From Clostridiales bacterium (GTDB taxonomy: Bacteria; Bacillota; Clostridia; Monoglobales; WRBX01): a stretch of DNA of 41,063 nt. How positions within the stretch are numbered: position 1 is the stretch's first letter; every line of letters begins with the position of its first letter. The stretch spans positions 1 through 41,063 of the forward strand of contig JAISFC010000024.1 in NCBI GenBank assembly GCA_031263785.1, read 5' to 3'. The notes beneath the pieces were generated by a model that saw nothing but the letters and a program-made list of their open reading frames with translations, searched no databases and was not told the origin of the DNA. Below are positions 16,271 through 30,989 of this stretch, in pieces. A program made the position numbers and the translations under genes.

Positions 16271-18895
16271 GTGATTGCATCGTTAGCCGCCGATATATGG
16301 CGCAAATTTAGCGTCGGGTACGGGGGGAGCATGATAGGGCGCGGATTGACGCGGGTTCAGCAACGTCTGCGCGGCGCGTGGGATCGTTCATTCTGCGGCT
16401 CGGTTATTGAGGACGGCACGCCTGCGCTCGCGATATCACAGTCGCGTTCATACGATATTTTCCGCAGAATCGGCGCATTTTTCTCGGGGAAGGTCCGCGG
16501 TGCAATCGCTGGAAGCGCAATCATGTCCGCCTTCGGGAAGATGCACATATTGCTGTTTTTCGCGCTTGTCGCGCTCGCGCCGTTTCTCCCTACCATGGTG
16601 TGCGTGGGGCTTGCCTTGCTTACAATCGTGAGTTCATTCGCCGCGCCGCGTGAGAGCAGAGGCGGCTCGCTGTCCTTCTTAATCGCGATGTTTATCCTCA
16701 TTTCCGCGCTTTACGCGTTCACGTCGGTTGCGCCTGTAGGCTCGGTCAAGGTGTGGGCGGTGTACGCCGTTTTCATAATAATGTATTTTATGACGTTGCG
16801 CACGATTAAGGACGCCCGCGGGCTCGCGATTATGGCGAATACGTTTGTCGCGAGCGGGATTTTGGTGTCATTATATGGAATATATCAGCAGTTTTTTGGT
16901 AATAATTTAGGACACGCGTGGCTGGATGAGGAGATGTTCACGGGCATAGCGGTGCGCGTCTATTCCACGCTGGAAAATCCCAATGTTTTGGGCGAATATT
17001 TGCTGCTGACGATACCGATGAGCGTGGCGTTATTGTGGAATGTTCGCGCGTATTCGGGGCGGCTGAAACGCGTATTTGCCGCCGCGTATTATATATTCGG
17101 CACGGGCGCGATGCTCCTTTGCATGATATTTACGCAGTCGCGCGGGTGCTGGCTGGCGTTGGTGGTGAGCGCGCTTATCTACGTAATTTTCATTGATAAG
17201 CGGCTGCTGGCGCTGTTTTTCATCGCGCTGGCGTTTGTGCCGAGCTTGCTCCCGCAGTCGATTATCGACCGTTTCGCGAGCATCGGCGACTTGAGCGATT
17301 CCTCAACGTCATACCGCGTGTTTATTTGGTTCGGGACGCTGAACATGCTGGGGGATTTTTGGGCGTACGGTATTGGATTAGGCGCGGCGGCGTGGGCGAA
17401 AATCTACCCGTTCTACTCATATAGCATGATAACCGCGCCCCATGCGCACAATGTGTACCTGCAGGTGATTAGCGAGATGGGGATAGTCGGGCTCACGGTG
17501 TTTGTGGGGATTATTGTGGTTTTTTTCGGCAAAATGCTGAGGGCGTACGTGCGGACGAAGCGCGGGGTGCGCACCCTCGGGACGCTAATATCGGTGGCGG
17601 CAATGGCGGGCGTGGCGGGGTTTTTGATGCAAGGCGCGTTCGACTATGTATGGTACAATTATCGCGTGTTTTTGATGTTTTGGGTTGCGCTGGGCATAGG
17701 CGCGGCGGCGGTGCGCGTTCAGGGCATTGACGATGGGAATACAGCGGAGGCGTCTAGCGGGAAGCGCAAGCTGGTCCACATAATTTCCGATACGAATATC
17801 GGTGGCGCGGGGCGGTATTTACTGCAATTTCTCAAGGAATGCTCGCGTGATAAATATGATGTCGCCGTGATTTTACCTCGCGGCAGCCAGCTTAAAGCGG
17901 CAATTGAGCGGGAAGGCGCGGAGGTGCGGGAAGTGGATGGATTGGCGGAAAAATCCTTCTCTTTTAAGGCGGTCTCCGAGATTGCGGCTATTTTGCGCGA
18001 GATGGGCGCGGGCAAGGCTGATTCGATAGTCCACACGCATGGCGCGCTTTCCGGCAGAATTGCGGCGAAGCTCGTCGGAGCGGGGCTGGTGGTTTATACG
18101 CGGCACAGCGTGTTTGAGCAGAGCGCGGTTCTGACAAGCGCGGCTGGGCGGATAATCAACAAAATTGTGAACAGCCTGACGGCGGATAAAATTATAGCGG
18201 TGGCGGAGGCGGCTAAGAAAAATTTGGTGGATACAGGGGTGCCGAGCCGGAAAATTTGTGTGATTTACAACGGGGTGACGCCGCTTGAGCGGGTGGACGC
18301 GTCCGAGAAAAAGGCGCAATTTGCGGAAAAATATGGGCTGCGCGACAACTGCCCGACGCTTGCGATAATCGCGCGGCTCACGGAGGTCAAGGGGCAGAGA
18401 TATGTGATTGAGGCGGCTAAAATATTGCGTGATAGAGGGGTTGACGCGCAGTTTATAATTGCCGGCACGGGCGAGGAAAAGGACGCGCTTAAGGAGCTGG
18501 CGGAGAAGCTGGATGTGCTGGATGGAAACGTCTTTATTCCGGGGTTTATTCGGGATGTCGAGGGGCTGATGAATATAATCGACATTCAGATTAACGCGTC
18601 GCACGGGACGGAAGCGGCGAGCCTGTCGTTGCTTGAAGGGATGAGCATCGGATTGCCCGCGATAGTGAGCGATTACGGTGGTAACACGGAGCTGATTGAG
18701 GACGGCGTGAACGGGATTGTCACGCGGCGGAGGGACCCCGAGGGCATAGCGAATGCGGTGGAAAAACTGCTGAATGATGAGGCTTTATATAGTAGTATGA
18801 GAGTGGACGGGAAGCGCATATTCGATGAGCGGTTTACGGCTAAAACGATGGTGAGGAACATGGAAAATTTTTACGAAAATCGGAACTTGACATAG
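16271..18895 (+). CDS. Fusion: N-terminal O-antigen ligase/polymerase-like membrane domain + C-terminal GT4 glycosyltransferase
   Basis: About 10 TM segments with VYSTLENPNVLGEYLLLTIP, QSRGCWLAL and APHAHNVYLQVISEMGIVGL; then KLVHIISDTNIGGAGRYLLQFL ... ARLTEVKGQRYVIEAAKIL ... SHGTEAASLSLLEGMSIGLPAIVSDYGGN in one frame. Confidence 0.9.
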   Translation: MIASLAADIWRKFSVGYGGSMIGRGLTRVQQRLRGAWDRSFCGSVIEDGTPALAISQSRSYDIFRRIGAFFSGKVRGAIAGSAIMSAFGKMHILLFFALVALAPFLPTMVCVGLALLTIVSSFAAPRESRGGSLSFLIAMFILISALYAFTSVAPVGSVKVWAVYAVFIIMYFMTLRTIKDARGLAIMANTFVASGILVSLYGIYQQFFGNNLGHAWLDEEMFTGIAVRVYSTLENPNVLGEYLLLTIPMSVALLWNVRAYSGRLKRVFAAAYYIFGTGAMLLCMIFTQSRGCWLALVVSALIYVIFIDKRLLALFFIALAFVPSLLPQSIIDRFASIGDLSDSSTSYRVFIWFGTLNMLGDFWAYGIGLGAAAWAKIYPFYSYSMITAPHAHNVYLQVISEMGIVGLTVFVGIIVVFFGKMLRAYVRTKRGVRTLGTLISVAAMAGVAGFLMQGAFDYVWYNYRVFLMFWVALGIGAAAVRVQGIDDGNTAEASSGKRKLVHIISDTNIGGAGRYLLQFLKECSRDKYDVAVILPRGSQLKAAIEREGAEVREVDGLAEKSFSFKAVSEIAAILREMGAGKADSIVHTHGALSGRIAAKLVGAGLVVYTRHSVFEQSAVLTSAAGRIINKIVNSLTADKIIAVAEAAKKNLVDTGVPSRKICVIYNGVTPLERVDASEKKAQFAEKYGLRDNCPTLAIIARLTEVKGQRYVIEAAKILRDRGVDAQFIIAGTGEEKDALKELAEKLDVLDGNVFIPGFIRDVEGLMNIIDIQINASHGTEAASLSLLEGMSIGLPAIVSDYGGNTELIEDGVNGIVTRRRDPEGIANAVEKLLNDEALYSSMRVDGKRIFDERFTAKTMVRNMENFYENRNLT

Positions 18896-27078: not shown

Positions 27079-27128
27079 TTACGAATAATTTTACAATGCG
27101 TTAAAATTTGTTGGAGGGGGTCGGGTGT

Positions 27129-28394
27129 GTGAAAAAAAGCACGATTATTGCATGGAGTTTTGTGGCTATTATTGTGTTGAGTTTTGTATCTGTAATTGTT
27201 TTAAATTTCGCAAAAGGCGGTAGCGGCGGCGAGACCGCGAATAAAGATAATGCGCCTACATCTTTGGATTCAGACGTTAAGCTGATGAAAACGATTGATA
27301 ATGGCGGGAATATTATTTTCTCGCCGTTCAGCATAAAAATGGCGTTTATGATGGCGGCGAACGGCGCGTCGGGAGCGACTAAGCAGGAGATTTTGGATGC
27401 TTTTGGAGTGAGCGATTTGGATTCCTTTAACCAATCCGCGAAAAATGCGTCCGCGGTGATTGAAAGCGAGGAGCGTAGCGAATACGACACAGATAGGAAG
27501 ACTATGGCGTTTGAAATAGGCAATTCGATTTGGCTGAACAAGGATTATGAGGCGCCGACGTTTGCGAATGTGGTTTTTTCGCCGCAGTTTACGGCAAAGG
27601 TGCAGGAGTTTTTCCATGGGGTCAGCAATGTTGTGGGCAAGGCAAACAGGGTGACCGCGGTAAACGCGTGGATTGAAGAGAAAACTCACGGGAAAATCGT
27701 CGGGGCATTGCCGGATAGCGATGATTTTGACTATATGTCTGCGTTGGTGAACACGATTTATTTTAAGGCGGAATGGGCGAACCAATTCACAGAAGCGGCG
27801 ACGCAAAAGAGGATGTTTACGAACAAAAACGGCACGACGGCATCGGTGGATTTTATGAATAAAACCGAAGGTATGGGCTATTTTGAGAACGGTAAATTCC
27901 AAGCGGTTGAGATTCCGTATTATACCGGCAGTGACGCGCAAATTAGCATGTTTATTTTTCTGCCGAAAAAAACGTCGAGTGAGATAGACGCGAATGATAT
28001 GAGCGCGGTTTTCGCGAATAAAACGTCGGAGAATGTTAATCTAAGCATTCCTAAATTTAAGACGGAATTTAAAGATACGGGAATTAAGGATAAACTAGCG
28101 CAATTGGGGATTGTTGAGGCTTTTAATGGGGAGCGCGCTCAATTTGGCGGAACATATGATAATTTGCCTGCCGGATTTAACGCTTATATTGGTTTTGTGA
28201 TACATCAAGCGTATATTGAGATAGACGAGAACGGCACCGAAGCGGCGGCGACGACGATTATTGGGGGAAAGAATCTTGCTATTGCCATTCCGCCCACCCC
28301 GAAGGAGTTTGTGGCTGACCATCCGTTTACTTATGTGATTCGCGATAATAGCTCGGGCGACGTGTATTTTATGGGGAAGATAGTTTCTTTTTAA
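27129..28394 (+). CDS. Serpin family protein with N-terminal membrane anchor
   Basis: NIIFSPFSIKMAFMMAANGASGATKQEI, hinge EIDENGTEAAATT, FVADHPFTYVIRDNSSGDVYFMGKI; GTG start with GGAGGGGG SD (27113-27120). Confidence 0.93.
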   Translation: MKKSTIIAWSFVAIIVLSFVSVIVLNFAKGGSGGETANKDNAPTSLDSDVKLMKTIDNGGNIIFSPFSIKMAFMMAANGASGATKQEILDAFGVSDLDSFNQSAKNASAVIESEERSEYDTDRKTMAFEIGNSIWLNKDYEAPTFANVVFSPQFTAKVQEFFHGVSNVVGKANRVTAVNAWIEEKTHGKIVGALPDSDDFDYMSALVNTIYFKAEWANQFTEAATQKRMFTNKNGTTASVDFMNKTEGMGYFENGKFQAVEIPYYTGSDAQISMFIFLPKKTSSEIDANDMSAVFANKTSENVNLSIPKFKTEFKDTGIKDKLAQLGIVEAFNGERAQFGGTYDNLPAGFNAYIGFVIHQAYIEIDENGTEAAATTIIGGKNLAIAIPPTPKEFVADHPFTYVIRDNSSGDVYFMGKIVSF

Positions 28395-28408: not shown

Positions 28409-29371
28409 TCAAATGCTTAGTTGCAAGGCTAATTTTATCAATTCCTCGCTGTCATCGGGCGCGACGGAAAGCCCCTCGTTTACGTCGATGTCGTATATTT
28501 TGTTGTCCTTCATGCCCACGATTCGGTTGCCTATGCCGTTGCGCAGCAAATCCACCGCCCGCGCGCCCATTTGGCTGGCGAGGCAGCGGTCCATCGCAGT
28601 CGGGCTCCCGCCGCGTTGCATGTAGCCTAAAGTGTTAATCTTTGTCTCGATTTTAGTTTCCTGCTCTATGCGCCGCTTAAGCTCGTCCGCGCCGCCTACG
28701 CCCTCGGCAAGCACAATGATAAAATGCTTCTTGTTGCGCCTGATTCCGTCGTTTATCACGGAAACTATGTCGGGCGTGTTTTCGGGCTTCATCTCGGGGA
28801 CGTACACCGCCTCCGCGCCCGTGGCAATCGCCACATGTATGGCAATTTTGCCGGAATTGCGCCCCATAACCTCAATGATATTGCAGCGTTGATGGCTGGA
28901 CGCCGTGTCGCGAATTTTATCCACCGCGTCCTTCGCCGTGTTTATCGCGGTATCAAAGCCGATTGTGTATTCAGTGCAGGAGATGTCGTTGTCGATGGTG
29001 CCCGGGATGCCGATGGTTGGCAAGCCGGAAGCCGCAAGGTCGCGCACGCCGCGGAAGGAGCCGTCGCCGCCGATTACAACAAGACCGTCAAGGTGAAAGT
29101 ATTTCGCCTGTTCGACGGCTTTTTTAACGCCTTCAGGGGTGGCGAATTCCGTAGACCGCGCCGTTTGAAGCACAGTCCCGCCGCGTTGCAGGATGTCGGA
29201 CACATCCCGCGCGTTAAACTCGAAGAAGTCGCCGTGTAAAAGCCCGCTAAATCCGCGTCTTATGCCCAGCGCGCGCAGATTGTAAAATTTGGCGCTGCGC
29301 ACCACGGAGCGAATTGCCGCGTTCATGCCGGGCGCGTCACCGCCGCTTGTTAAAACTCCGATTGTGTTCAT
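28409..29371 (-). CDS. pfkA: ATP-dependent 6-phosphofructokinase
   Basis: MNTIGVLTSGGDAPGMNAAIRSVVR...GFSGLLHGDF...IGIPGTIDNDISCTEYTIGFDTAINTAKDAVDKIRDTASSHQR. Confidence 0.96.
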   Translation of the reverse strand: MNTIGVLTSGGDAPGMNAAIRSVVRSAKFYNLRALGIRRGFSGLLHGDFFEFNARDVSDILQRGGTVLQTARSTEFATPEGVKKAVEQAKYFHLDGLVVIGGDGSFRGVRDLAASGLPTIGIPGTIDNDISCTEYTIGFDTAINTAKDAVDKIRDTASSHQRCNIIEVMGRNSGKIAIHVAIATGAEAVYVPEMKPENTPDIVSVINDGIRRNKKHFIIVLAEGVGGADELKRRIEQETKIETKINTLGYMQRGGSPTAMDRCLASQMGARAVDLLRNGIGNRIVGMKDNKIYDIDVNEGLSVAPDDSEELIKLALQLSI

Positions 29372-29454: not shown

Positions 29455-30132
29455 TCAGCAGCTCATCAATATAGTTTCGTGCGCCTTTTCCATTTCCGTA
29501 GACGGCACAAGCACCTCGTGCATTTCGTTGCCGCTGTCGTAAACGCGCGCCAGCACAGCGCTTTTCTCCAGCGCGTTCCGCACCTTTTCAGCCATTTCGA
29601 GCGTTTGCGCCATGTATATGGAAGTCCACATCCCAATCAAATCCTTTCTGCCGTTAATTTGGCGTCCGAGCAGAGAACTCGCGGTTCTTGTGTTGCCTGC
29701 CGCCAGAAGCTTACGAATCCGCGTGCTCGAGACCAACGCCCCGCCGACCTTGAGAGGAGGCATCACCTTTAGCTCCACGCCGTATTCGTCGCACAATTCG
29801 GCTAGGAAAGCAACGTTGCCCTCTTTCCCTTTGCCGAAGGTGAAATTAAATCCCACGACGACCAAGCTTGCTTTCAGCTCTTGAACAATGCACTTCTCGA
29901 AAAAATCCGCCGCAGTCATATTTTTAAGGTTATCAAGCGGTTTTGCGATGACTTGATGCACACCTAAGCCCTTAAGGAGCCGCTGCTTTTCATCGGGAGT
30001 CGTAAGGCTCTCCGCGGAATTTTGAATCACCAGCGCGCACGTGGGCGATGACGAATTTACCGCAATTCTAACGAGCTTTCTATGCGCAATATGAACGCCG
30101 TCAAACGTACCGGCGACAACCCCTAAACCCAT
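29455..30132 (-). CDS. ribF: RibF-type FAD synthetase (adenylyltransferase) domain fused to a small MWT-type (DUF2007-like) domain; riboflavin kinase domain absent
   Basis: GTFDGVHIAHRKLVRIAV...VGFNFTFGKGKEGN...VSSTRIRKLLAAGNTRTASSLLGR then MWTSIYMAQTLEMAEKVRNALEK...EVLVPSTEMEKAHETIL. Confidence 0.8.
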   Translation of the reverse strand: MGLGVVAGTFDGVHIAHRKLVRIAVNSSSPTCALVIQNSAESLTTPDEKQRLLKGLGVHQVIAKPLDNLKNMTAADFFEKCIVQELKASLVVVGFNFTFGKGKEGNVAFLAELCDEYGVELKVMPPLKVGGALVSSTRIRKLLAAGNTRTASSLLGRQINGRKDLIGMWTSIYMAQTLEMAEKVRNALEKSAVLARVYDSGNEMHEVLVPSTEMEKAHETILMSC

Positions 30133-30989
30133 AATGCTTTCACCAACTTTAAAACTCCGCCTTCCGCACGGCTTATAGCCAATAATTCGCCGCCCGCGCT
30201 TTTCACTCTGTAAAATCCGTCAGGCAGGTCGGCCTCTATTTTTCCGCCGTTTATAATTGTGAATTCTTTTTCTTCCGGCACGATAAATTCGGCGAAATCC
30301 GCCAGCGCGCCGTCTATGGAAATCATCTCAAATTCCTTATTTTCCAACTGATTAGTCGTTATGCACTGCTCCAGCGCAAACCGCCCGACCCGCGTCCGTA
30401 TCAACGCGCTCATGCACCCGCCGCAGCCCAGACGATTGCCTATATCGTGGCAAAGTGTGCGCATATACGTGCCTTTGGAGCAGTCGACGAGCATCTCAAT
30501 TAAATCATTTGCAATTTTCAGCACTTCTATGCTATGTATACGTATTTTTCGCGGCTTGCGTTCCACCTCAATGCCCTTCCGCGCCAGCTCGTACAGCTTT
30601 TTTCCGCCGATTTTCAGGGCGGAATACATGGGCGGGATTTGCTCAATTTCGCCCACGAATTCCGCGATGACCTCACGGATTTGCGCGTCGCGGGGAAGTG
30701 GGATTCTGCCGAGGTTAAGCGCGATTCGCTTGCCCGTTATGTCCTGCGTGTCCGTCACGATGCCCAGCTGCATGCTCACGCGGTATTGTTTCCGCTCCAC
30801 CTGCAAAAACTCCGCTATTTTGGTCGCTCTGCCCACGCAAATGGGTAAAACGCCCGTCGCCATCGGGTCCAACGTGCCGACGTGCCCCGCTTTTTCAATC
30901 TTGAGGACCCGCCGCGTTTGAATCACGATGTCGTGCGACGTTATCATTTGAGGCTTATTTACTAAGATAATCCCTGCTTCTAATATAAT
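30123..30989 (-). CDS. truB: tRNA pseudouridine(55) synthase
   Basis: GIILVNKPQMITSHDIV...KAGHVGTLDPMATGVLPICVGRATKIAEF...MYSALKIGGKKLYELARKG; start extended upstream of ORF-track ATG 30947 to recover the GIINVxKP motif (start codon non-canonical, approximate). Confidence 0.92.
   Translation of the reverse strand: MILEAGIILVNKPQMITSHDIVIQTRRVLKIEKAGHVGTLDPMATGVLPICVGRATKIAEFLQVERKQYRVSMQLGIVTDTQDITGKRIALNLGRIPLPRDAQIREVIAEFVGEIEQIPPMYSALKIGGKKLYELARKGIEVERKPRKIRIHSIEVLKIANDLIEMLVDCSKGTYMRTLCHDIGNRLGCGGCMSALIRTRVGRFALEQCITTNQLENKEFEMISIDGALADFAEFIVPEEKEFTIINGGKIEADLPDGFYRVKSAGGELLAISRAEGGVLKLVKALWV

Follow-up and report, generated by a model that had tools for sequence, protein, structure and literature searches.

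Finding ribF in a genome is commonly read as evidence enough that the cell can convert riboflavin to FMN and FAD. The ribF gene in the window analysed here, positions 1 to 41,063 of a contig from a Clostridiales bacterium (JAISFC010000024.1, assembly GCA_031263785.1), raises the question of what such a gene supplies when its product lacks the FMN-making half and ends instead in a small, normally separate protein, and of how the gene came about. The genome that contains the window (G000) measures 1.45 Mb and is a draft in 92 contigs, 91.7% complete.

The open reading frame at 30132-29455 on the minus strand is one uninterrupted frame of 225 amino acids, which comprises, in order, a PF06574 domain, a 10-aa linker and a complete 58-aa protein that we call MWT (Table 1). 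The PF06574 (FAD_syn) profile matched residues 5-138 at 98.8 bits, against a cut-off of 27 (E 3.7e-28), and PF01687 (Flavokinase) had no match in the fusion protein, bearing out the sequence-only reading that the riboflavin kinase domain is absent. The best RibF equivalog model reached 113.6 bits against a cut-off of 295 and was matched to position 191 of 325 only. The adenylyltransferase part runs as far as ...LLGR, its last residue being number 157 at base 29662; in 12 two-domain relatives the kinase starts at this column. The MWT part begins at ATG 29631 with no stop codon between ribF and MWT, and the join is in frame and at a domain boundary, as had been claimed. The first 10 bases of ribF are shared with the end of truB, and a single minus-strand gene run leads from truB through the ribF half and MWT to pfkA, where truB and pfkA are names given from sequence. 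A scan for promoters and terminators was negative for the minus strand in the interval from ribF to pfkA. A serpin-like protein gene (27108-28394, plus strand) adjoins pfkA on the opposite strand, and elsewhere in the window 16271-18895 (plus strand) encodes an 874-aa protein with an apparent O-antigen-ligase-like membrane domain and a glycosyltransferase.

Table 1. Features of the ribF-MWT locus, in window coordinates.
Feature	Position	Strand	Basis
truB, tRNA pseudouridine synthase	30123..30947	-	ORF; usual gene upstream of ribF
RibF FMN adenylyltransferase (FAD synthetase) part	29662..30132	-	residues 1-157; PF06574, AlphaFold2 model, PDB matches
Linker QINGRKDLIG, 10 codons	29632..29661	-	sequence; contains AGAAAGGA at 29642-29649
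MWT domain, 58 aa + stop codon	29455..29631	-	homology to stand-alone 61-66-aa proteins
pfkA, 6-phosphofructokinase	28409..29371	-	70% identity with G001 PfkA; usual MWT neighbour

The remaining RibF domain is predicted to catalyse FMN + ATP to FAD + PPi, reversibly. An AlphaFold2 model of the fusion, built from a 34-sequence alignment in which the tail had no relatives, gave block-mean pLDDT values of 89-98 across the adenylyltransferase part and low confidence across the MWT part; its best PDB matches were crystal structures of bifunctional FAD synthetases, from C. ammoniagenes and T. maritima (Foldseek, 2.4e-15 to the C. ammoniagenes enzyme). Nucleotidyltransferase motifs were assessed as they are given in PMC2573891: N1 (GxFDGxHxGH), N2 (FxPHP), N4 (GxNxxFG) and N5 (SSTxIR). 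N1 is kept as GTFDGVHIAH, with a single G to A change that is found in the sister genome G001 too, N4 as VGFNFTFG and N5 as SSTRIR. The flavin-pocket motif N2 has been lost, the sequence being VIQNSA; replacement of the N2 prolines abolishes adenylylation in the C. ammoniagenes enzyme (PMC6829536), but N2 is absent also from several RibFs of this order that have both domains intact (L020, L023, L026). The ribF side of the locus has diverged, with 36% identity to G001, and its top-scoring matches among the fetched loci are not from G001.

The tail is homologous, over nearly its full length, to stand-alone proteins of 61-66 aa in the class (33-53% identity at E < 0.001; best E 1.5e-10), encoded upstream of pfkA in ten relatives, which supports the earlier suggestion that the fusion ends in a small clostridial protein that is usually made on its own. 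It is complete and keeps the conserved residues of its family (the MWT start, VP, E and A). The further suggestion that it resembles DUF2007 (PF09413) received a weak indication from the family, 4 of whose 11 members matched the profile weakly (best E 0.0012), and none from the fusion member, which had no match. A search of solved structures with the MWT alignment returned weak, implausible matches only, and the single-sequence structure prediction was all-helical at a pTM of 0.38 and was treated as uninformative.

Could the cell also make MWT on its own? The sequence-only reading had proposed dual translation on the strength of a Shine-Dalgarno-like stretch, and AGAAAGGA is indeed found 10 nt before ATG 29631. 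Its anti-Shine-Dalgarno pairing energy, -5.7 kcal/mol, is reached by 26% of the 215 internal in-frame ATGs in genes of the window, so that the stretch is present but its strength is not above chance, and the argument for dual translation drawn from it is no stronger than chance either. That free MWT is also produced by internal initiation at this ATG is, in our judgement, rather unlikely: the site is no weaker than that of ribF's own start (-4.9 kcal/mol), but every stand-alone MWT orthologue examined has a stronger one (-7.8 to -12.2 kcal/mol). The AGAAAGGA site may be a remnant, and the linker around it probably derives from the 5’ untranslated region that the MWT gene once had.

The consequences for flavin supply depend on whether the kinase persists elsewhere in the genome. 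A search for a separate riboflavin kinase, which had been suggested as a check, was negative: profile searches of the 91.7% complete assembly found one FAD_syn and zero PF01687, and the CTP-type riboflavin kinase PF01982 was found neither in G000 nor in nine other genomes. The relatives search covered 60 genomes, 52 of which have PF01687. One of the 60, G006 (96% complete), encodes a RibF of 181 aa that ends in ...FLGRPYK, at the same boundary as in G000, with no PF01687. A scan of named genomes added five more cases. In the clostridial genomes G060-G062 the RibF proteins are 182-188 aa long, having lost the kinase at the same boundary, and in G063 and its relative G064 the RibF C-terminus is degenerate, with no Pfam match (L053:5926-6762 and L056:5980-6762); PF01687 is missing from these genomes as well. 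Short peptides taken from P0001 served as seeds for the named-genome scan, so its counts are not frequencies. Among the other RibF architectures encountered, L164 and L165 (G147 and G270, two genomes of one family) encode proteins of 778-780 aa in which a complete two-domain RibF is fused in frame to a C-terminal domain that, from its sequence, looks like a peptidase of the M16 type.

The kinase might instead have been split off, its gene now lying by itself in the ~8% of G000 that is not assembled, in which case riboflavin would still be phosphorylated. This has a precedent in the Bacteroidales genome G065, where the FAD_syn half is fused in frame to YggS at the ribF locus and a stand-alone riboflavin kinase, an ORF of 120 aa, lies elsewhere in the genome. 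(G065 is MAG Lab288P3bin130; the fusion is at L104:5941-7335, the kinase at C14:42459-42806, and YggS is PLP-binding.) That case also demonstrates that our search detects split kinases and that the adenylyltransferase half can gain foreign tails. The completeness of G000 leaves room for a missed gene, but the chance that any one gene is missing is roughly 8%, and six other genomes have the adenylyltransferase without any kinase; a completeness is stated for one of the six, G006 (96%), the other five having been reached through loci. We therefore regard a surviving separate kinase as unlikely.

Dus, the tRNA-dihydrouridine synthase, is an FMN-dependent enzyme, and its presence in 10 of 10 genomes examined indicates that FMN is needed; all seven kinase-less genomes keep it. 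RibH is absent from all seven (G000, G006 and G060-G064). It is absent also from G001 and G007, both of which have the kinase, so auxotrophy alone fails to explain the kinase loss. With FMN required, no capacity to make riboflavin and no kinase that we can recognise, the cell would probably import FMN and/or FAD, for which a RibU-like ECF transporter is a plausible route, and the remaining RibF domain would interconvert the two. An FMN riboswitch was found in only one of 11 genomes, G006, where it precedes the gene for an ECF S component with a match to the riboflavin-transporter profile PF07155. G000 encodes a related S component (C38:1083-1565; E 2e-11 to that of G006), which is RibU-like and has the broad PF12822 match only, with no PF07155. 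Such a way of life is documented: in Listeria monocytogenes, RibU imports FMN and FAD, RibF adenylylates FMN, and a ribC ribF double mutant lives on FMN/FAD (PMC12892937, PMC9973259). Some FAD synthetases, moreover, are able to run in reverse, from FAD to FMN (discussed in PMC12934955).

Because of Dus, the S components, the Listeria RibU route and the reversible FAD synthetases, import combined with a single interconverting domain is the simplest reading. Our best account, to which we assign a probability of roughly one half, is that the fusion gene encodes a monofunctional FMN adenylyltransferase, that the organism imports the FMN/FAD on which it lives, and that MWT is carried along as a passenger; here we infer both the enzyme activity of the fusion and the uptake of FMN/FAD. 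Several points count against it. At 91.7% completeness a kinase of G000 could have been missed; N2 is lost; the G000 S component matches PF12822 only; no FMN riboswitch was found in G000; and PF12822 had no match in G060-G062, where another uptake route would thus be needed.

A riboflavin kinase that is non-homologous to the described ones might, alternatively, serve the kinase-less genomes. Several genomes do have Dus and an FAD synthetase without PF01687 or PF01982, as such an enzyme would explain, but in Listeria the import of FMN/FAD has been documented to suffice. G003 and G055, in which both RibF domains are absent and Dus is kept, point to import as well, and we consider an undescribed kinase highly improbable. 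The pattern in G003 and G055 suggests full dependence on imported flavin coenzymes. These two and other genomes of the class, 0.8-1.4 Mb in size, are nearly complete and have no FAD synthetase.

The recurrence of riboflavin kinase loss in small clostridial genomes is a more interesting point than the fusion. As a tentative account, which falls somewhat short of being probable, several small-genome lineages of the Clostridia, many of them gut-associated, would independently have lost riboflavin kinase and kept FMN adenylyltransferase. They would then be natural FMN/FAD auxotrophs living on phosphorylated flavins from neighbours or the host, with the retained domain interconverting imported FMN and FAD. 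Since ribF is present though its FMN-making half is gone, such genomes could be mis-scored as riboflavin users. If the account is true, kinase-less bacteria depend on ready-made FMN/FAD, which is a different cross-feeding need.

How MWT came to stand behind the adenylyltransferase half can be approached by comparison with relatives. G001, a sister genome from the same family, carries a complete two-domain ribF behind truB on contig C1; its MWT gene, which encodes a stand-alone protein of 61 aa, is on contig C17, immediately upstream of pfkA. The truB-ribF order is the same in G001 and G006. MWT precedes pfkA in other relatives, in most of them between pfkA and a dnaE-like gene, presumably dnaE. 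Among the fetched loci, the best match to G000 PfkA is the protein from G001, at 70% identity, which suggests that the pfkA side of the locus is native to G000. The earlier proposal of a simple in-frame deletion between two neighbours does not fit these arrangements, ribF and MWT-pfkA being on separate contigs in G001. With the two loci apart there and the order dnaE-like gene, MWT, pfkA in most relatives, the fusion would have needed a rearrangement that placed MWT-pfkA behind ribF in addition to loss of the kinase, and not only a deletion. In the scenario that we propose, the kinase half of RibF would have been lost, leaving a monofunctional FMN adenylyltransferase, and a rearrangement, earlier or later than this loss, would have set the MWT-pfkA gene pair directly behind the adenylyltransferase half. 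The reading frame now continues through what was probably the leader of MWT and on to the end of the intact protein, so that MWT would be made as a C-terminal tail.

A second FAD_syn::MWT fusion was found neither in viral contigs, nor in contigs of named genomes, nor among 80 named loci or 60 relatives. In a plasmid search with the fusion protein, all matches were below 60% identity and the best was annotated as an ordinary RibF. The fusion, seen once only in these searches, is most simply a by-product of rearrangement, with MWT acting as a passenger or as an independently folding tail. It is very unlikely that the contig artificially joins a truB-ribF locus to an MWT-pfkA locus: the judgement is made from a draft assembly in 92 contigs, and the two halves are apart in G001, but the join is in frame and falls exactly at a domain boundary, with both partners otherwise complete. 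None of the G000 contigs carries an orphan kinase fragment, the junction shares no exact repeat of more than 12 nt with other parts of the window, and GC content is alike on the two sides (0.52 and 0.53). We give little credence to a functional fusion in which MWT would act as a regulator of the adenylyltransferase or would link glycolysis, through pfkA, to the supply of flavin, since, although MWT is complete with its conserved residues and pfkA is retained as its neighbour, no second such fusion was found among the 80 named loci or 60 relatives and kinase-less enzymes elsewhere have no tail or a different one.

The fusion shares with bifunctional RibF (TIGR00083; PF06574 + PF01687) the N-terminal adenylyltransferase, motifs N1, N4 and N5 and the place behind truB, and differs from it in having no kinase domain, no N2 and an MWT tail. 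With the MWT small-protein family it shares full-length homology and a pfkA gene directly downstream; members of that family are usually separate genes, whereas here MWT is a C-terminal fusion domain with no dnaE-like gene upstream. The RibF of Listeria monocytogenes (lmo0728), to which we liken the fusion by description only, adenylylates FMN in an organism that imports FMN/FAD via RibU (PMC12892937); Listeria also keeps RibC, which performs both steps, whereas G000 has no other RibF. A further parallel lies in the FAD synthetase relatives, noted by Frago et al. 2008 (PMC2573891), that have the N-terminal region only or join it to an unrelated C-terminus. A conserved N-terminal half, no kinase and an unrelated C-terminus make up exactly the architecture class of the fusion. 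The passage that describes those relatives does not name MWT as a partner; in G000 we can say which gene supplied the tail and where it lay ancestrally. Kinase-less RibF is thus a known kind of loss, and the G000 fusion is another example of it, with an odd tail.
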